Made by a program: the position numbers and the translations under genes. A stretch of DNA of 8,525 nucleotides, taken from positions 1-8,525 of the forward strand of contig JAJPHF010000114.1 of the NCBI GenBank assembly GCA_021325365.1. Reading direction: 5' to 3'. This DNA comes from Pseudomonadota bacterium. GTDB lineage: Bacteria; Chloroflexota; UBA6077; JAJPHF01. Every line of letters begins with the position of its first letter. The stretch's first letter is position 1. The notes below the pieces were generated by a model. It saw only the letters and a list, made by a program, of their open reading frames with translations, did no database searches and was not told the DNA's origin. Shown here in pieces: positions 118-8,525 of this stretch.

Positions 118-140
118 GCCGAGCATTCTGCGGCGTGCGG

Positions 141-177
141 AGAGCCCCAGCGACTCGCTGGGGCTCTTGCTGTTGTT
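141..177 (+). terminator. Rho-independent terminator-like stem-loop
   Basis: AGAGCCCCAGCG (141-152) pairs perfectly over 12 bp with CGCTGGGGCTCT (156-167) around a 3-base loop, ACT. It is followed by the T-rich run TTGCTGTTGTT. It lies 23 bases after the stop of the left-edge gene and in the same direction, so it most likely ends that unit and insulates the cassette that starts at 500. Confidence 0.8.
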
Positions 178-499: not shown

Positions 500-1291
500 A
501 TGGGGGTAAGGATGGGCCACGTTCGTCTTGGTCGGCTGCCCAAGACCAGCCGTTGGCGTAGCGTCGTGGGACTCTTGTCCATTGCCCCGGGCGACGTGCG
601 CGCGGTTGCGGAAGCCACCGCCGAAGCCGCCGAGATGCGCCTGCGGCTGCTGGCGCTCGATACGACGTTAGTCTATTCATTCTGGCTCTTGACCCGCGTC
701 ACCTGGGCCTCCCGTAGCCCGGCGTTCGCAACCGTGCTTGCCGATCTGGGCCTGGAGCCGGTCGACACCCCCTCGCCGCTCACGTTGATCGCCCAGCTTG
801 GGGAGCGCGTGCGCGCGTGGTCCCGCGAGCATCCGGAGTCGGGCCCCTTTGCCGAGCTGGCGCTGCTCGCCCTCCGCCGGGCGCTCTCGGAGACCGTGGG
901 GCAGGAGAACCTATCGCTATTCGGTAGCTCGCTGGAGGATCTGCGGCGGGTGCTACGCCCGTACTCGACGGCGGCCCGATTCGGCACCCTCGCCAAACGC
1001 TTTTTCGGCGACCTGCTCGCGCGCACTTTGCGGTTCTTCGTCGACCGCGAGCTGTCCAATCGCGTCGGCGGCCCAAACACCTTACAGACGATTACGGACA
1101 GCGTGAAGTTCACTGAGGCGCTGGAGCTGTACGCGCGCCAGACGGCCGTCATCATGGAGCAGTATGGTGCCGACTGGTACAGCAAGTACAACTGGCAAGC
1201 GCGCGGAGAGATACCTCAGGAGGAGGCGCGTCGGTTCGTCGCCTACTCACTGGCCAAGCTGCGTTCTGAGCTCCGGCAGCCCGAGCCGTGA
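500..1291 (+). CDS. Helical protein of unknown function, partner of a QueC-like enzyme
   Basis: The product is 263 aa and appears soluble and alpha-helical; it has no signal peptide or clear membrane segment. A stop in frame at 494-496 fixes the start at ATG 500 or ATG 512. The second has GGGGG at 502-506 as a weak ribosome site, and both choices give an N-terminal Met-Gly. Recognisable blocks are LPKTSRWRSVVGLL near residues 14-27, an aromatic helix around LVYSFWLLTRV, a central helical region ending in FVDRELSNRVG, and WYSKYNW at 226-232 followed by a basic C-terminal helix (LAKLRSELR). The pattern resembles unnamed proteins that I recall beside QueC-like genes, but I cannot name a domain. 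The stop overlaps the next start by 4 bases (GTGA), so the two are translated together and probably act together. I infer it is the partner or substrate of the QueC-like enzyme. Confidence 0.85.
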   Translation: MGVRMGHVRLGRLPKTSRWRSVVGLLSIAPGDVRAVAEATAEAAEMRLRLLALDTTLVYSFWLLTRVTWASRSPAFATVLADLGLEPVDTPSPLTLIAQLGERVRAWSREHPESGPFAELALLALRRALSETVGQENLSLFGSSLEDLRRVLRPYSTAARFGTLAKRFFGDLLARTLRFFVDRELSNRVGGPNTLQTITDSVKFTEALELYARQTAVIMEQYGADWYSKYNWQARGEIPQEEARRFVAYSLAKLRSELRQPEP

Positions 1292-3378
1292 GCGAGACAC
1301 TCACCCGCGCGCTGATCGAGTGTGACGGAGCCACGGCGCCGCCAGCATTGGCGCGCGAGCCCTGGACGATTCGCCACGCGCTCCGGGCACATGGAACGTC
1401 GCCCGATCTCAATCTGCGCATCGATTCACTGAGCGATGTCGTCCAGACAATCGTGGTACCTGTCGCATCCGACCTGTTGCGCATCGCCGCCTATACCTAC
1501 GGAGCGGACCAGGAACTCTCGCGTGGCGGGGATCGAGACCCAACCGACGCTGGCTGGCGTCGGGAGATCGCGTTGTGCGTGCCCGTGGTGGCGCTTGACG
1601 TGTGGGCGCGTGACGACGTCCAAGACTTGCTAGGCGAGACACTCCACTTCGCGACCGACGACACGTGGCGCTTCGCGTTTAGTCACGGTGACGCCGAGGC
1701 GCATTCGCTGCCCATGTTCAACGAGCGCGAGCAGCTATATGACCCGGACTGCGTGCTGATGTTCTCCGGCGGCGCCGATAGCCTGTGCGCGGCGGTCCGG
1801 GCAGTGGCGGCGGACGACGCGCGGCCGTTGCTCCTAAGTCATCGATCAGCGACGTACTTCGACGCCTGGCAGCGGCAGCTCGTCGAGCAGTTGCGCCGCG
1901 CTCTGCCCCAATGGCGGTTCCCCCATCGTGGCTGCTGGGTCCAGCGCCGGGACGGTGAGGCCCGTGAGCGAACGCGCCGCTCACGGGCGTTTCTCGTCGC
2001 CAGTCTGGGCGCCGCGGTTGCCCTGCAGCTCGAGCTCACCCGCGTCCTGCTCGCGGACAACGGCGTGGTGAGCCTGAACGTATCACTCAATGGCAGCGTG
2101 GCGGGCGCCCAGGCCAGCCGGTCCACGCATCCACAGTTTCTACATCTATTCAACCGCCTGCTCCGCGCCATCTTCCCGGCGCCTGTACGGGTGACGAACC
2201 CTCAATGGGCGCAGACGCGGGCTGAGGTCTTAAGTACGCTCACGGCTCACCACTGTCCCGAACTGCTCCCGTACACCCGGTCGTGTAGCCGCGCGCATGG
2301 GCTGCCGCCAAGTCAGCCTCATTGCGGGACGTGCTCTCAGTGCATCGATCGCCGGTTCGGTGTGCTAGCCGCCGGGTTGGAGGCGCACGACCCGCCCTCC
2401 GGCTACGCCAAGGATGCGTTTAGAGAAGCGCTCCCGCCGGGGTATGATCGGACGATTGGTGAGTCCTATCTTCGTCTGGCGCAGCGAATCGACGAGACGC
2501 CTGAAGACCACCTCTTTGAGAAATTCGGGCAATTGTTCGACGCGGTGTTACCCAGTGAGGAGGGTATCGTCTCCCGCAGCCACGCCGTGCAGAAGCTGCT
2601 CAAGCGGCACGCGGCGAGTGTCGGCCAGGTGATGCAAAAGATGAATGCCCAGTTGAGTGGCGCTCTCTGGGCGGGCGCCATCGCGCGAACGAGTCTGCTG
2701 GGACTACTCCACAACCATATGGTGGCAGCCACTCCGTCATCCGTCGGCATGGAGGACGCCGCGATCTGGCAGCGGATGGGTAGTCAGTGGCGACTCGTAT
2801 TCCGGGGGCACGAGGCCTACGTACAAGATCGACTGGGCGTCCGCTATCTGGCGCATCTGCTGGGGGCACCAAACACGGAAATCTCGGTACTGGACCTTTT
2901 CAACCGGGAACGTGGGGGCCGGAAGCCCGCCGACGCGCTATCAGACATCGCGGTGCAGCAGGCGATGGCCGAGAAGCAGATGCGCAGCGGCGGCAGCGGT
3001 GAGCTGGATACCCCGAAAGAACGCGCGATCCGCCGTCTTCTGCGGCAGATCGATGCGCTCCGCACCGAGCACGAGACGGCGCTGGATCTGGGAGAGACCA
3101 ACTACGCGAGCACCCTCGCCGACCAACTCGAAACGCTCGATGCCCGACTAAGCGGCGCCTACGCCGATCTGCTGGGCAACAACCGGCTGAGCGACCAGTT
3201 TAAGCGCCAGCGACAAGCGGTAACGAAAGCGATCAGGAGCGCAATTCGCCTCATCGGCGAAGCCCATCCTCAACTTGGCCGGCATCTGCATGCCAGTGTC
3301 CGCGTGGCCCTGCTTTGTAGTTACTGGCCTGACCCCCCTGTGCACTGGGAGCTGCGGCTCTCCCCGTCCGCGGCGTAG
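1288..3378 (+). CDS. QatC/Cap9-like QueC-family PP-loop enzyme fused to a wHTH/coiled-coil signalling domain
   Basis: The product is 696 aa; household QueC is only about 220-230 aa. It starts at GTG 1288 inside the previous stop. Residues 1-155 form an N-terminal region seen in defence QueC-like proteins (LLRIAAYTYGAD, then WRREIALCVPV). The PP-loop SGGADS is at 160-165 and binds ATP in this family. SHRSA follows at 184-188, DNGVVSLN from 257 and STHP at 279-282. A zinc site comprises C333, C346, C349 and C352 (CGTCSQCIDRRF). From about residue 488 comes a different module: WQRMG, then LGVRYLAHLLG from 516 and ISVLDLF (winged-helix-like), a charged coiled coil at about 577-625, and CSYWPDPPVHWEL near 677-689. 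I know this module from the C-termini of large ATPase/TPR regulators. QueC normally makes preQ0 from CDG using ATP. No queD, queE or tgt is present, so I infer a defence role with the 263-aa partner, perhaps modifying it. Confidence 0.88.
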   Translation: MSETLTRALIECDGATAPPALAREPWTIRHALRAHGTSPDLNLRIDSLSDVVQTIVVPVASDLLRIAAYTYGADQELSRGGDRDPTDAGWRREIALCVPVVALDVWARDDVQDLLGETLHFATDDTWRFAFSHGDAEAHSLPMFNEREQLYDPDCVLMFSGGADSLCAAVRAVAADDARPLLLSHRSATYFDAWQRQLVEQLRRALPQWRFPHRGCWVQRRDGEARERTRRSRAFLVASLGAAVALQLELTRVLLADNGVVSLNVSLNGSVAGAQASRSTHPQFLHLFNRLLRAIFPAPVRVTNPQWAQTRAEVLSTLTAHHCPELLPYTRSCSRAHGLPPSQPHCGTCSQCIDRRFGVLAAGLEAHDPPSGYAKDAFREALPPGYDRTIGESYLRLAQRIDETPEDHLFEKFGQLFDAVLPSEEGIVSRSHAVQKLLKRHAASVGQVMQKMNAQLSGALWAGAIARTSLLGLLHNHMVAATPSSVGMEDAAIWQRMGSQWRLVFRGHEAYVQDRLGVRYLAHLLGAPNTEISVLDLFNRERGGRKPADALSDIAVQQAMAEKQMRSGGSGELDTPKERAIRRLLRQIDALRTEHETALDLGETNYASTLADQLETLDARLSGAYADLLGNNRLSDQFKRQRQAVTKAIRSAIRLIGEAHPQLGRHLHASVRVALLCSYWPDPPVHWELRLSPSAA

Positions 3379-3415
3379 GTCGCTAGAGCGATTTCCGAGG
3401 TCGCTCTAGCGACCT
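3377..3415. repeat. 14-bp perfect inverted repeat overlapping the stop of the QueC-like gene
   Basis: AGGTCGCTAGAGCG (3377-3390) pairs perfectly with CGCTCTAGCGACCT (3402-3415) around an 11-base loop. The left arm includes the last two bases of the stop codon. It could be a terminator for the cassette, although no T-run follows. The right part alone, 3398-3415, is an 18-bp palindrome (AGGTCGCT-CT-AGCGACCT), which fits a protein-binding site equally well. Confidence 0.7.
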
Positions 3416-3959: not shown

Positions 3960-4380
3960 CCTACAGCCGCGCTACACCGAGGCGGTGAGGTCGTGTGACC
4001 CGGTGCGCCGGGAAGTGGCGCGCCGGCAGCTTGCACGCCTGCAGACCCCGAGGCGTACCCACACGGACGCCGCGGCCAGCGTCTGGGGCCATGTGCCGCT
4101 CGCCGCGCTGTTCCAGGAGGCGGGCAACGTCCTGCGACCGCGGGCAGCCGGCCGCGTTGAAACCGGGCACGAGCCGTTCCACGGCAGCCGCAGTGGCCGC
4201 TGCGTCACCATTAGTCCCGAGACCGGCCTCTGGTGGTGCCGCGCCTGCCGGCAGGGCGGCGACGCGGTCACGTTTGTCCAGCAGTGGAAGGGCTGGCGGT
4301 ATTCAGCCGCCGCCGCCTGGCTGGTCGCCCGCTTCGGCCGCCCTGCCCATGGACGCGGGCCTCGCGGGAGGGTGCGCTAA
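3952..4380 (+). CDS. Stand-alone CHC2-like (DnaG-type) primase zinc-finger protein
   Basis: The product is 142 aa, starting at ATG 3952 with TTGAGG at 3938-3943 upstream. Residues 1-70 are basic and helical. Residues 73-110 resemble the DnaG zinc-binding domain: H73-E-P-F-H77, then C84, PETGLWW, C96-R-A-C99, and RQGGD followed by VTFVQQW. The next part, YSAAAAWLVARFG, matches the helix that closes this domain in primases. Canonical CHC2 fingers have C-x2-H then C-x2-C. Here the first Cys is Glu74, so H73 or C84 may replace it as ligand. The domain normally binds template DNA for primer start-site choice. No catalytic TOPRIM or AEP domain is attached. The stop overlaps the helicase-polymerase start (TAATG), so the two products are made together and probably work together at the fork. 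Confidence 0.82.
   Translation: MPSLQPRYTEAVRSCDPVRREVARRQLARLQTPRRTHTDAAASVWGHVPLAALFQEAGNVLRPRAAGRVETGHEPFHGSRSGRCVTISPETGLWWCRACRQGGDAVTFVQQWKGWRYSAAAAWLVARFGRPAHGRGPRGRVR
4366..4372 (+). promoter_or_regulatory. Shine-Dalgarno GGGAGGG fixing the helicase-polymerase start
   Basis: GGGAGGG lies 7 bases before ATG 4380, which itself overlaps the upstream TAA (TAATG). The open frame extends back to 4233, but those 49 codons overlap the zinc-finger region of the upstream gene and have no ribosome site. Confidence 0.8.
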
Positions 4381-7300
4381 TGCCGGCCCACCCCGAGCTG
4401 CAGCTCAAGCGCTGCTGGCGCACGGATCGGCGGCTGATGGCCGTTGTGGCGGTGACGCAGGCTGATGCGGCGATTTACTCAGACACCGTGAACCTGGAGA
4501 GCGCCGCCGCTCGCGCGAGCTTCGCTGCCCGGGCAGCAGAGCGGCTGGTGGAGCGCAACGGCTGTGGCGCGCCGGAGCTGGAGGGCGCACTGTTCAAGTT
4601 GGTCGCAGAGGCCGAGCAGGCGGCCAACGGGGCTGCGGCGGAGGCGGAGGCCGGTTGCAGGAGCGACGGAGAGCGGGCCTCGGCCGCGGAGCTGTTGGTG
4701 CAGATCGGCGCGCGGGGCCTGCTATTCCACGACCCGCTGGGCGACACGTACGCGCGGCTGAGCGTGGACGCGCATACGGAGGTCTGGCCGACGCGCTCGA
4801 AAGCGTTTCGCCGCTGGCTGGTGGGCACCTACTATCACCTGTTCGAGCAGGTGCCAGGCAGCGAGGCCGTCACTAACGCGCTGCAGGTGCTGGAGGCGCG
4901 CGCTCAATTCGACGGCCCGTGCGAGCGGGTGCATCTGCGCCTGGCGCCCGACGGCGTGGACGGCTTCTACCTGGACCTGGCCGATGCCAACTGGCAGGCG
5001 GTACACGTCACGCCGCGCGGCTGGGCGCTCGTCGGGGCCCCGCCCGTGCATTTCCGCCGGACGGCGGGCATGTCGCCGCTGCCCGTGCCTCAGAGTGGCG
5101 GGCACCTAGACGAGCTGCGCCAGTTCGTGAACGTGCCGGACCCCGCCGATTGGCCGCTGGTGAAGGCCTGGCTCGCGCAGGCGGCGTGTCCCACCGGACC
5201 GTATCCGGTGCTGGCGCTCTACGGAGAGCAGGGCTCGGCCAAGACCTCGCTGGCCCGCATGCTCCGGGCACTGATCGATCCGGCCGAGCCGGACCTGCGT
5301 TCGGACCCGCGCGAGCTGCGAGACCTCGCCATCGCGGCCCGCGCGACGTGGCTGGTCGCCTTCGACAACGTGAGTCACGTCCAGCCATGGCTGTCGGATG
5401 CTCTCTGTCGCCTGGCGACCGGCGGCGGCTGGGCCACCCGCGAGCTGTACACCGACTTTGACGAGGCGCTGTTCGCGGCGCAGCGGCCCGTCCTGCTCAC
5501 CGGTATCACCGAGTTCGTGACCCGCGGCGACCTGCTGGACCGCGCGCTCCAGCTCGTGCTGCCCCCGATCCCTGATCGCGCCCGGCGGGACGAGCGGCGG
5601 CTGTGGGCCGCCTTCGAGGCGGCCCGGCCGCGGCTACTCGGCGCGCTCCTCGATACCGCGGTGGGCGCGCTCCGCGAGCGGTGTGTCGTCCAGCTCCCAC
5701 GCCTGCCGCGTCTGGCCGACTTCGCCCTGTGGGCGGTCGCCGCCGAACGGGGGCGCGGCGAGGCCCCGGCGTTCCTCGCCGCGTATCAGGGCCAGCACGT
5801 TACGATGCACCAGCAGGCGCTCGACGGCAGCCTCGTCGGCGCGGCGCTCCAGGCGTTCCTGAGCGGGGAGGCGGCGCTCGGCCCCTGGTCGGGCACGGCC
5901 CACGAGCTTCTACACGGCGTGAACGGCCAGGCCAGCGAGGCGACGCGGAAGCTCAAGGGCTGGCCTCGCACCGCCCGCGGCATGGCCGGCGAGCTGCGGC
6001 GCCTCGCGCCTGCGCTTCGCGGGCTGGGATACGGCGTCCGCTTCGGAGACCGCGTCGGGCGCGAGGGGAAGCGGATCATCACGCTCACCCCGCCGGCCGC
6101 TGCCGCCACGACGGAGGATGCGGAGCACGGCGCGGAGCTGACCGACGAGGAGTCGCTGCGCGCCGCGCCGTTGGAGGGGACGGCGGAATCGTCAGCAGCG
6201 TCAGCACCGTCGGCACCTGGCGCAAGCCCGCTCCTCGCCTGGGAGTCCGCGCCCCCGACTGCTGACGATCCACAGCCCCCAATCGTCAGCAGCGAACCGG
6301 CAATCGTCAACAGGCGGGATGCTGACGACGCGATGTCCGGGCCCGGTGAGGCCGATGCCGCCGCTGCTGACGAGCCGACCGCGGCCACTGACGATCCACA
6401 TGAGGCCACCGTCAGCGGCTCCGCTCCCGAGAGTCCAATACCGGCGCCATGCGCCGCGGCTGCTGACGATGCTGACGCTGCTGACGGTCGTGTCGCCACT
6501 TCGCGACTGGCGGTTAGTCTAGACTCTTCGTACACGCTGCTCGCCGATGCGGCGGCCGTCACCGACGCCCTTCCGACCCTACACGCGGCGCCCATGCTCG
6601 GGCTCGACTGCGAGACCACGGGACTGGACCCGGTCAGCGATCGGCTGCGGCTCGTCCAGCTCGCGACGCCCGAGCGCGTCTACCTGGTGGACTGCTTCGC
6701 CTATGATCCGCGCGTGCTGGCTCCGCTGCTCGCGGCCGGCCCGCGGCTGATCGGCCACAACCTGAAGTTCGACCTGCGGTTCCTCGCCGCGGCCGGGCTG
6801 CCGGTCCCCGCTGGCGGGCGGCTGTTCGACACGCTCCTCGCGGCACAGCTCCTGGGCGCGGGCAGCGAGACAGGCTACCTTCAGCACTGCGGGCTGGCCG
6901 AGGTCACGGCGCGGACGCTTGGCATCGCCCTCGACAAGACCGAACAGCGGTCGGACTGGGCCGGGGCGCTGAGCGCGGCCCAGCTCACCTACGCCGCGCG
7001 CGACGCCGCGGTGCTGCTGCCGCTCGCGGACCGCCTGGAGGCCGAGCTGGCCGCCGCCGACCTGGGACGAGTGGCGGCGCTGGAGATGCGCGCCCTGCCG
7101 GCGCTCGTTTGGCTGGAGCAGTCCGGCGCGCCCTTCGACACCGACCGCTGGGCCGATCTGTCCGACGCGGCGGTGGCCGAGCAAATCCGGCTGGAGGCCG
7201 AGCTGGCCGCCGAGGCGGGCGCCCTGGACCTGTTCGGCGTCGGGGCGGTCAACTGGTCGAGCCCCGCCCAGGTGCTCCGCGTGCTGCGGGGCCGGGGGCA

Positions 7301-8249
7301 TACGCTCACGCACACGGACGAGGCAACGCTGCAGGCGCTCGCGGATCGCGAGCCTTTGGCGCGCACGCTCCTGGCGTACCGCGAGGCGAGCCGCAAGGCG
7401 ACGGCCTACGGCATCACCTTCGCGCAGGACCACGTCCACCCACGGACGGGGCGCATCCATCCCGACTACCTGCAGCTCGGCGCTGCCTCGGGCCGCATGT
7501 CCTGCCAGCGGCCGAACCTGCAGAACATTCCCCGCGACCCCGCCTACCGCGCGTGTTTCCGGCCGGGGGCCGGCCGCGTCCTGGTCAAGGCTGACTACAG
7601 CCAGATCGAGCTGCGGATCGCCGCCGAGCTGACCGGCGATACGCGTATGCTTCAGGTCTATGCGCACGGCGAGGACCTGCACACCGTGACGGCGGCCGCG
7701 GTGCTCGACCGCGCGGGCGGCGCGGTGACGCGCGCGGACCGTCAGGCCGCGAAGGCGCTGAACTTCGGCCTGCTCTACGGCATGGGTGCGGCGCGCCTGC
7801 GCGAGCACGCCGCGAGCCACTACGGCGTGGAGTTGACCCCCAGCGAGGCGGAGCGGTTCCGCGCCGGCTTCTTCATGACCTACCCCGGGCTGCGCGCGTG
7901 GCACCGAGGGCAGTCCGGGGGCACGGTCGACACGCGGACGTTGGCCGGTCGGCGACGGCTGGGTGTCACATCGTTCACGGAAAAGCTAAACACGCCCGTG
8001 CAGGGCAGCGGCGCGGATGGACTCAAGGCGGCGCTCGCCCTGCTGTGGGAGACGCGCGATCGCTGCCCGACCGCGGTGCCCGTGTTCTGCGTGCATGACG
8101 AGATCGTGGTCGAGTGCGACGCCGCCGAGGCGGAGGCCGCGCAAGTCTGGCTCGTGGACGCCATGCGCCGCGGAATGGCGAGCTTCCTCCGGCGGGTGCC
8201 GGTCGAGGTAGAGGCCAAGATCGGCGCCGACTGGAGCATGCAGGACTGA
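4380..8249 (+). CDS. Phage AAA+ helicase fused to DEDDy exonuclease and family A DNA polymerase
   Basis: The product is 1289 aa, a predicted replisome core in one chain. Residues 1-260 match the N-terminal part of phage D5/SF3-like helicase proteins (LLFHDPLGDTYARL, YLDLAD). The ATPase core has Walker A GEQGSAKTS at 282-290, Walker B-like WLVAFDN ending at D329-N330, LCRLATGGG at 342-350, RPVLLTG from 369 and a likely arginine finger R388. A winged-helix-like end stops near 570. Residues about 571-730 are a low-complexity Ala/Asp/Ser/Pro linker. The 3'-5' exonuclease shows D743-x-E745, H793-N794...D798 and Y871-x3-D875 (DEDDy). Polymerase motif A contains D1072-Y-S-Q-I-E. Motif B is R1121, K1125, F1129, Y1133, with the same spacing as Klenow R754, K758, F762, Y766. 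Motif C is H1239-D-E1241. There is no 5'-3' exonuclease domain. Phages usually encode these halves separately, so the fusion is notable. Confidence 0.92.
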   Translation: MPAHPELQLKRCWRTDRRLMAVVAVTQADAAIYSDTVNLESAAARASFAARAAERLVERNGCGAPELEGALFKLVAEAEQAANGAAAEAEAGCRSDGERASAAELLVQIGARGLLFHDPLGDTYARLSVDAHTEVWPTRSKAFRRWLVGTYYHLFEQVPGSEAVTNALQVLEARAQFDGPCERVHLRLAPDGVDGFYLDLADANWQAVHVTPRGWALVGAPPVHFRRTAGMSPLPVPQSGGHLDELRQFVNVPDPADWPLVKAWLAQAACPTGPYPVLALYGEQGSAKTSLARMLRALIDPAEPDLRSDPRELRDLAIAARATWLVAFDNVSHVQPWLSDALCRLATGGGWATRELYTDFDEALFAAQRPVLLTGITEFVTRGDLLDRALQLVLPPIPDRARRDERRLWAAFEAARPRLLGALLDTAVGALRERCVVQLPRLPRLADFALWAVAAERGRGEAPAFLAAYQGQHVTMHQQALDGSLVGAALQAFLSGEAALGPWSGTAHELLHGVNGQASEATRKLKGWPRTARGMAGELRRLAPALRGLGYGVRFGDRVGREGKRIITLTPPAAAATTEDAEHGAELTDEESLRAAPLEGTAESSAASAPSAPGASPLLAWESAPPTADDPQPPIVSSEPAIVNRRDADDAMSGPGEADAAAADEPTAATDDPHEATVSGSAPESPIPAPCAAAADDADAADGRVATSRLAVSLDSSYTLLADAAAVTDALPTLHAAPMLGLDCETTGLDPVSDRLRLVQLATPERVYLVDCFAYDPRVLAPLLAAGPRLIGHNLKFDLRFLAAAGLPVPAGGRLFDTLLAAQLLGAGSETGYLQHCGLAEVTARTLGIALDKTEQRSDWAGALSAAQLTYAARDAAVLLPLADRLEAELAAADLGRVAALEMRALPALVWLEQSGAPFDTDRWADLSDAAVAEQIRLEAELAAEAGALDLFGVGAVNWSSPAQVLRVLRGRGHTLTHTDEATLQALADREPLARTLLAYREASRKATAYGITFAQDHVHPRTGRIHPDYLQLGAASGRMSCQRPNLQNIPRDPAYRACFRPGAGRVLVKADYSQIELRIAAELTGDTRMLQVYAHGEDLHTVTAAAVLDRAGGAVTRADRQAAKALNFGLLYGMGAARLREHAASHYGVELTPSEAERFRAGFFMTYPGLRAWHRGQSGGTVDTRTLAGRRRLGVTSFTEKLNTPVQGSGADGLKAALALLWETRDRCPTAVPVFCVHDEIVVECDAAEAEAAQVWLVDAMRRGMASFLRRVPVEVEAKIGADWSMQD
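6190..6216. repeat. Left triple 9-bp tandem (reverse orientation) of the cluster
   Basis: Three 9-base units run in tandem: CGTCAGCAG, CGTCAGCAC, CGTCGGCAC. The first 17 bases (6190-6206) are the exact reverse complement of 6470-6486 at the far end of the cluster, so the cluster is bounded by inverted arms 263 bases apart. Confidence 0.7.
6259..6292. repeat. 11-bp perfect inverted repeat within the cluster
   Basis: CTGCTGACGAT (6259-6269) pairs perfectly with ATCGTCAGCAG (6282-6292) around a 12-base loop. It joins one forward and one reverse copy of the repeat. A 13-base piece of its left half, CTGACGATCCACA, recurs exactly at 6388-6400. Confidence 0.75.
6461..6487. repeat. Right triple 9-bp tandem (forward orientation) of the cluster
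   Basis: Three tandem units read TGCTGACGA, TGCTGACGC, TGCTGACGG. They mirror the left triple at 6190-6216; over 27 aligned positions 24 agree in inverted orientation. Confidence 0.75.
6516..6525. repeat. AGTCTAGACT palindrome just before the exonuclease domain
   Basis: This perfect 10-bp palindrome lies 29 bases after the last repeat of the cluster, in a short AT-richer patch that includes the uncommon codons TTA-containing GTT-AGT and CTA. It may be part of the same DNA element or may be chance. Confidence 0.3.
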
Positions 8250-8259
8250 AGCCTGCATG
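8237..8259. repeat. 8-bp hairpin across the polymerase stop codon
   Basis: CATGCAGG (8237-8244) pairs perfectly with CCTGCATG (8252-8259) around a 7-base loop that holds the TGA stop. It has no T-run, so it is unlikely to be a strong terminator. It could tune expression of the next gene, whose ribosome site begins just after it. Confidence 0.45.
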
Positions 8260-8277
8260 GAGAAAGGATTACCGCGA

Positions 8278-8525
8278 ATGAGACGCAAGACCGATCAACC
8301 CCTCGCCTGGCGCAACTGGATCGTGGGCTACGGCGCGGAGGCGCCCGACCAGCTCGTCGCCAACCCCCGCAACTGGCGCATCCATCCCACCGGCCAGCAA
8401 GAGGCGCTGGTCGGCGTGCTGCGGGAGGTGGGCATCGTGCAGGACGTACTCGTGAACCGTACCACCGGCTTCGTGGTAGATGGGCACCTGCGGGTCCTGC
8501 TGGCGCTACGCGACGGGCAGGCGAC
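8278..8525 (+). CDS. ParB-like N-terminal domain protein, possibly fused to a DNA methyltransferase (3'-truncated)
   Basis: 82 codons are visible from ATG 8278, chosen because AAGGA at 8264-8268 lies 9 bases upstream. An in-frame ATG at 8257 has no ribosome site and lies in a hairpin arm. After a basic start (MRRKTDQP), residues 27 onward match the ParB/Spo0J N-terminal fold: LVANPRNWRIHP, then a helix QQEALVGVLREVG, a strand VQDVLVN, and VDGHLRVLLAL, the G-H-x-R loop that binds nucleotide or metal in this family. In phages this domain often precedes a DNA methyltransferase, and the spelling NPRNWRIHP fits those fusions better than plasmid-partition ParB. That part lies outside the window, so the methylase is inference. 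It sits 28 bases after the polymerase gene and probably belongs to the same operon. Confidence 0.82.
   Translation, partial: MRRKTDQPLAWRNWIVGYGAEAPDQLVANPRNWRIHPTGQQEALVGVLREVGIVQDVLVNRTTGFVVDGHLRVLLALRDGQA

Follow-up and report, generated by a model that had tools for sequence, protein, structure and literature searches.

An 8,525-nucleotide stretch of contig JAJPHF010000114.1 (assembly GCA_021325365.1; the whole stretch is hereafter called the window) contains two overlapping genes, here named B and C, the second of which encodes a QueC-like enzyme. The question raised by this locus is whether the two genes form an anti-phage system of their own, as an earlier note made from the letters of the window had proposed, or belong to a known system or pathway. 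The reading favored here, with moderate confidence, takes the cassette to be a QatBC-type anti-phage module that stands alone and in which C would modify the N-terminal glycine of B; this reading is the best one because the anatomy of the pair is the same as that of QatB-QatC in the qatABCD system. The two pairs share the gene order, the short overlap, the active-site, loop, and zinc pattern of QatC, a Met-Gly N-terminus followed downstream by Pro and Trp, and a remote match between B and QatB. In the available text of PMC13279940, QatB and QatC alone protect Escherichia coli against lambda-vir, the QatB substitution G2D or active-site mutations of QatC abolish defense, and the reaction of QatC is left unresolved.

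A Conserved Two-Gene Unit

Both open reading frames (ORFs) are intact, and their 4-base overlap, noted earlier, was confirmed. The B ORF occupies positions 500-1291 from its first ATG (263 codons), and the C ORF occupies 1288-3378 with a GTG start (696 codons); the shared bases are GTGA. The length of 263 residues first given for the B protein is correct for the ORF but probably not for the gene. The homologous start lies at position 512, the fifth codon of the window ORF, in 105 of the 120 listed B homologues, and 103 of these 120 are 257-261 residues long. Because 105 listed homologues begin there, gene B probably starts at 512 rather than at the in-frame ATG at 500, which would give a 259-residue product (512-1291) beginning with Met-Gly-His. 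Read from 512, B opens with MGHVRLGRLPKT, and GGGGGTAAGG is located directly upstream of that start.

Scans with a B alignment, whose patterns include the N-terminal motif, yielded 33 genome-contig and 6 viral-contig loci. C adjoins B at all 29 of these loci that have a full-length B, including L005, where B shifts to another frame near its end. The other 10 loci are fragments, broken copies, and contig-edge cases, and 6 of them have no C. A viral set was found by C patterns alone and consists of the best 80 of 150 relatives, near-copies included; B was found upstream of C in 78 of these loci, and the remaining 2 start inside C at the contig edge. The genes overlap in 107 of the 109 tabulated pairs. 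They abut in L014, and in L012 a gap of 116 bases was called, although the domain match of C begins 5' of the called C start. B and C are a conserved two-gene unit, and their recurrence is far above chance.

Judging by organism titles, the pairs come from about a dozen phyla. Among 400 sampled genomes of Chloroflexota, the phylum of L001, 6 gave a B match, and 2 of these were already known. Two of the loci, L034 and L088, are the same contig. A pair annotated only as hypothetical proteins is carried by a Leptospira noguchii plasmid (L046:3120-5764); it surfaced through C, not through B, and its C tail groups with the nuclease-type module described below. A candidate B-C fusion, the 982-residue metagenome protein P0067 with B-like and C-like parts in one frame, was set aside, since its start may be misread. 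No useful match was obtained by tblastn with P0122 against PLSDB plasmids and INPHARED phages, with the B of L065 against phages, or with the B of L084 against plasmids, nor by blastn with the B-C DNA of L084 against E. coli genomes or by megablast with the whole window against phages.

The Enzyme Core of C

C matched the PADLOC model for QatC (7.1e-51) and the QatC chains 9vlk and 9zee in PDB. Across 56 C and 8 QatC sequences no variation was found in Asp62, the S, G, G, D, and S of the SGGxDS loop, Arg231, Arg233, Asn258, Gly259, His281, or the four cysteines; the fourth letter of SGGxDS varies. Thus, the intact SGGADS and C333, C346, C349, and C352 sites reported earlier are present and, apart from that letter, invariant. 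Tyr373 is constant across the 56 C but not across the 8 QatC. As far as alignment can tell, the QatC active site (ATP, zinc, and other tested residues) is kept nearly unchanged in C. The residue D63 of E. coli QatC is named as catalytic in the available part of PMC13329287.

Two further features were compared with QatC. According to the available text of PMC13279940, a QatB-binding loop is present in QatC and absent in QueC and Cap9, and the Tyr-x-Asp motif by which QueC and Cap9 read 7-carboxy-7-deazaguanine (CDG) is Thr-x-Thr in QatC. The C segment matching the QatB-binding loop is gap-free in the 9zee alignment and in the 20 alignment rows shown. At the Tyr-x-Asp columns, Ser/Thr-x-Ser/Thr was found in 54 of 56 C, with Ser-x-Ser in the C of the window. 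In a tree without an outgroup, the 8 QatC and the 56 C split with support of 100/99, and C is by this measure a group of its own, apart from QatC.

Other QueC-family systems share some features with the cassette. Canonical QueC shares with C the ATP-pyrophosphatase fold, SGGxDS, and the four-cysteine zinc site, but in C the Tyr-x-Asp motif is replaced and the protein is much longer. In type IV cyclic-oligonucleotide-based anti-phage signaling systems (CBASS), a QueC-family enzyme, Cap9, is likewise paired with a protein having an N-terminal glycine (available text of PMC13279940). C differs from Cap9 in the same motif, and B matches no PADLOC, Pfam, PHROGs, or NCBIfam model, so no cGAS/DncV-like nucleotidyltransferase (CD-NTase) match exists for it.

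B as a Probable Remote Relative of QatB

Beyond those four model collections, the B of the window gave no useful match to PDB sequences (best E 2.4), and four other B proteins gave none in Pfam and PHROGs. Conservation in B is concentrated at the N-terminus. Among 55 diverse B sequences, some of which were found via the N-terminal motif, only M1, G2, and K249 are invariant, and H3, L6, G7, L9, P10, and W15 are each conserved in at least 90%. Eight of the 25 best conserved columns fall in residues 1-15 (hypergeometric 1e-5). Wherever the N-terminus of B could be read, G2 was present (114 sequences, 100 distinct); among those collected with C patterns only, G2 occurs in 73/73 and H3 in 72/73. 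The N-terminus of B is conserved as a substrate tail would show.

Of 125 QatB sequences, most of them related to a single QatB, 119 begin with MGTS and 118 have Pro-x-Trp at positions 18-20. B differs in detail, starting with MGH and having Pro10 and Trp15, whereas Pseudomonas aeruginosa QatB has Pro16 and Trp18. In profile-profile comparison (hhalign), B matched QatB with a probability of 65.2% (P 6e-5) over 160 columns. Other alignment versions gave 71-82%, three of these covering about 90 columns, and five versions in all fall at 65-82%. The scores, 40-45, compare with at most 29.2 in 300 block-shuffled profiles, for which the probability was at most 12%, and with 14.8 and 16.6 for reversed profiles. 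B is a probable remote relative of QatB, supported but not proven. The earlier note had judged the partner of C to be unlike QatB, which is probably wrong in view of these probabilities and of the shared Met-Gly, Pro, and Trp pattern. A clear QatB match, which the note had named as counter-evidence to its proposal, exists in part: the match is there, but it is remote rather than clear.

Genomic Context

No QatA, the KAP ATPase of Qat, was found at 1e-5 in 118 B-C loci with a hidden Markov model (HMM) built from 8 plasmid systems, and no match to an HMM of QatD, the TatD-family nuclease, was found in the same loci, which total 1.48 Mb (median 11.5 kb) with some redundancy. Three Qat loci included for comparison did match, but they belonged to the training set. 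This agrees with the earlier description of a smaller Qat-related system without QatA and QatD, and the pairing of B with C is conserved without these genes.

The commonest neighbor is a large serine recombinase, found in 29 of 53 non-redundant B-C loci (11/27 host, 18/26 viral). It is located within about 1.04 kb in 22 of these 29 loci, with variable distance, side, and strand. None was found in 13 control stretches or in 8 Qat loci, the latter having shorter flanks; the comparison of host loci with controls has a Fisher p of 0.007. One member matches resolvases and the TP901-1 integrase in PDB. A fixed third partner, which the earlier note had set against its proposal, was rejected, as even this recombinase occurs in just over half of the loci at changing positions. 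In 18 of the 53 loci there is also a small protein of roughly 130-160 residues (e.g., L025:7323-7799 and L026:9466-9897), often near the serine recombinase; it is possibly an accessory factor.

The defense-gene comparison drew on 13 host loci, with the 7 nearest genes at each (90 proteins, as L016 gave 6), and on 84 genes from 12 control stretches, the thirteenth, L152, having yielded none. PADLOC families matched numbered 189 for the B-C neighbors and 7 for the controls; these are families, not proteins, the 7 control families include QueC, and the control stretches are non-random, being located on contigs from queC/queE match lists. Because just 4 of 10 rescanned neighbors matched and the controls are non-random, a defense context is supported at some B-C loci only. 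Those four neighbors are two SNF2-type helicases, a type III methyltransferase-like protein, and a partial PbeA match.

Prophages and other mobile elements often carry the cassette. The main rival explanation is that B-C serves the prophage itself rather than general host defense, as a switch for lysogeny, integration, or superinfection exclusion linked to the serine recombinase, with DNA-binding tails acting on phage or attachment-site DNA. The frequency and proximity of the recombinase and the TP901-1 match speak for such a switch, as does the position of C: in 23 of 76 viral loci, about 1.3 kb or less separates its end from that of the stretch. However, no recombinase was found in the flanks examined of 24 of the 53 loci, window included, its placement varies where present, and some B-C pairs adjoin defense-type genes. 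Defense genes near integrases are common in prophages, which also weighs against the switch, and a switch would in any case be compatible with the glycine chemistry. We consider it unlikely, though the main competitor to the anti-phage module.

Swappable C-Terminal Modules

After the zinc site, C proteins contain a shared domain of about 100 residues followed by divergent tails. Tails long enough for clustering were found in 224 of 231 C proteins (218 distinct sequences). The proximal domain is common to six module groups, with hhalign probabilities of 98.6-100% among them. The most frequent tail is type 0, the one in the window (117 proteins), followed by type 1 (44), type 2 (24), type 3 (22), type 4 (9), type 5 (4), and four singletons. 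Several type 3 members match DpnII-MboI nucleases. Type 1 appears winged-helix-like, but the matches are weak (E 0.026 for the best in PDB; Pfam HTH_11 matched by 6 of 18), and for types 2, 4, and 5 a winged-helix-like character is only a reading of the letters. For the window's distal module, the best PDB matches are designed and coiled-coil proteins and the Pfam matches are scattered. A type-0-like stretch was also observed at the end of two Streptomyces proteins (L140:1341-4040 and L141:2529-4088), one of them annotated as an AAA family ATPase.

On a core tree of 55 proteins, the module labels need 10 changes, the minimum possible being 5; well-supported branches alone force fewer, e.g., 3 for type 0 and 2 for type 3. 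Because of this excess of label changes, C tails are, on the evidence of the tree, exchanged among enzyme cores.

These tails distinguish C from QatC, as the eight QatCs compared (417-465 residues) have no such distal module. They therefore bear on the explanation that the cassette is an ordinary qatABCD, or one that lost qatA and qatD. The alignment of C with QatC and, remotely, of B with QatB fits this explanation, and the qatB-qatC order with a 4-base overlap is alike in 5 of 8 plasmid Qat loci. Nevertheless, the separate branch of C, the failure to find QatA and QatD in 118 loci, the distal module that the eight QatCs lack, the presence of intact pairs in many phyla, and the fact that PADLOC and NCBIfam miss B make it improbable.

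Proposed Function

In the favored reading of the cassette as a QatBC-type module, B and C would associate as a complex. Met1 would be removed, and the N-terminal glycine of B would then enter the active site of C. Using ATP, the SGGxDS loop, and the zinc fold, C would activate a carboxylate donor and couple it to the glycine amine, in chemistry likened to that of Cap9 in type IV CBASS and to that proposed for QatC. Either modified B or its complex with C would act on phage infection. The C tail, nuclease-like in some members and, from weak matches, winged-helix-like in others, would probably supply DNA contact or damage, a role that QatA and QatD may fill in full Qat.

Several results weigh against this reading. 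C scored 189.7 bits with the NCBIfam QatC model, under its cut-off of 280, and the QatB-binding C-terminal extension of QatC matched the proximal domain of C with a profile probability of only 2.6. One earlier version of the B-QatB comparison gave only 27% (P 1.3e-4), and the highest-scoring alignments span just about 90 columns. Single-sequence HMMs give no link between B and QatB, and Pfam PF28083 is marked on 120 listed QatB relatives and on none of 120 listed B homologues. The window's type 0 module has no convincing Pfam or PDB match. The defense signal is modest, a few helicases accounting for many of the families, and the rescan in which four large neighbors matched used a threshold of 1e-20.

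The Donor Question

Genes for CDG synthesis were surveyed in 17 genomes with B, mostly drafts. Canonical QueC was found above cut-off in 5 of them. For QueE, the CDG synthase, TIGR03365 was above cut-off in none and TIGR04508 in 2; at E of 0.001 or below, TIGR03365 matched in 13 genomes (12/13 and 1/4) and TIGR04508 in 7. Six of the TIGR03365 matches, which are partial, lie in longer frames, and have E values of 1e-5 or weaker, were discounted by judgment as general radical-SAM proteins, after which QueE is plausible in 7 of 17 genomes. Nine genomes have neither a convincing QueE nor a canonical QueC. Among them is G020, where the B-C pair is located on a 1.52-Mb contig of a 1.5-Mb genome. Because of these nine, the survey hints at a donor other than CDG. 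A QueD-family match was found in 13 of the 17 genomes, including six of the nine, two over cut-off, which counts against a non-CDG donor. Additionally, G042 has QueC with QueD adjacent and no convincing QueE, so the QueE/QueC models miss some cases.

A broader proposal can be made only tentatively: a prophage-borne class in which QueC-family enzymes tag the N-terminal glycine of a partner with a non-CDG donor, and in which DNA-binding and nuclease tails are swapped to change target or output.

Queuosine genes in the window were looked for among six of the 61 listed ORFs, namely B, C, a short ORF, a primase zinc finger, a polymerase, and a partial ParB/methyltransferase-like ORF, using PADLOC, Pfam, PHROGs, and NCBIfam. 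Neither queD nor queE was recognized, and no CD-NTase was matched, among these six ORFs; the absence of queuosine neighbors and of a CD-NTase claimed for the window holds to that extent, the surroundings of other loci lying outside the queuosine test. A metabolic role for C, in producing a small 7-deazaguanine metabolite or modifying DNA or tRNA, with B as an accessory, is very improbable: the distant QueC fold, the label of the matched PHROGs family (QueC-like queuosine biosynthesis), and the frequent QueD matches fit it, but the replaced Tyr-x-Asp, the lack of queD and queE among the six ORFs, and the nine genomes with neither a convincing QueE nor a canonical QueC do not, and QatC fails to restore queuosine to a queC mutant (available part of PMC13329287).

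Features of the Window

The features of the cassette and its flanks are listed in Table 1.

Table 1. Positions of the cassette, its parts, and flanking hairpins in the window
Feature	Position	Strand	Basis
Gene B, 259 residues, probable remote QatB relative, likely acceptor protein	512..1291	+	Homologue starts, C adjacency, hhalign to QatB
B codons 1-15 (MGHVRLGRLPKTSRW), conserved N-terminal tail with Gly2	512..556	+	Column conservation, 55 sequences
Gene C, 696 residues, predicted QatC/QueC-type ATP-dependent enzyme with long C-terminal extension	1288..3378	+	PADLOC, NCBIfam, and PDB matches
C Asp62	1471..1473	+	Aligns with position 63 of PDB QatC chain 9vlk; invariant in 56 C + 8 QatC
C residues 160-165, SGGADS pyrophosphate-binding loop	1765..1782	+	S, G, G, D, S invariant in 56 C + 8 QatC
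C residues 264-282, counterpart of the QatB-binding loop of QatC, ending SRSTHP and containing the Ser-x-Ser	2077..2133	+	Gap-free against 9zee
C zinc site, C333, C346, C349, C352	2284..2343	+	Invariant in 56 C + 8 QatC
C residues about 369-468, proximal domain, common to C with differing distal modules	2392..2691	+	hhalign between module groups
C residues about 469-696, distal module type 0	2692..3375	+	Clustering of 224 C tails
Intrinsic-terminator-like hairpin 5' of the cassette	140..168	+	z -5.3
Strong hairpin just 3' of the C stop codon, no T run	3377..3415	+	z -6.7; not among terminator-like sites

ORFs matching a primase zinc finger and a family A DNA polymerase with exonuclease are located 3' of the cassette. 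Relatives of this polymerase are present in phages and plasmids, which suggests that the window is part of a mobile element. The polymerase ORF (4233-8249, 1338 codons) combines a 3'-5' exonuclease and the polymerase with an N-terminal region whose ABC-type match is below threshold; its start may be 4380 rather than 4233. The best matches of the polymerase are phage polymerases at ~32% identity and cyanobacterial plasmid polymerases at ~42%. A further gene begins in 8257-8523, with weak matches to ParB-like proteins and DNA methyltransferases. The G+C content of the cassette (500-3400) is about 63-69%, below that of the downstream genes (4000-8250, about 70-76%), as if the cassette had been acquired separately from them.

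Novelty and Meaning

No description of a two-gene QatB/QatC-like form was found in the open-license literature on Qat and on QueC proteins in defense and prophages; the earlier view that the system is undescribed stands to that extent, and descriptions elsewhere are possible. B-C is apparently a widespread, unnamed relative of Qat.

According to the available part of PMC13329287, qatA and qatD are located beside about a third of the QatC cluster and qatB is about as frequent (data not shown there), and in that part the rest of the cluster is not treated as a separate system. Because only about a third have qatA and qatD beside them, stand-alone QatC forms with an unrecognized partner may be common. 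A natural two-gene version in many phyla, whose hosts often seem unable to make CDG, offers a simpler system for finding the donor. Through the exchange of tails, a single protein-modifying core would be coupled to several modes of action on DNA. If true, non-CDG tagging of an N-terminal glycine would be a protein modification not yet known, and the class carrying it would be large and unnamed.

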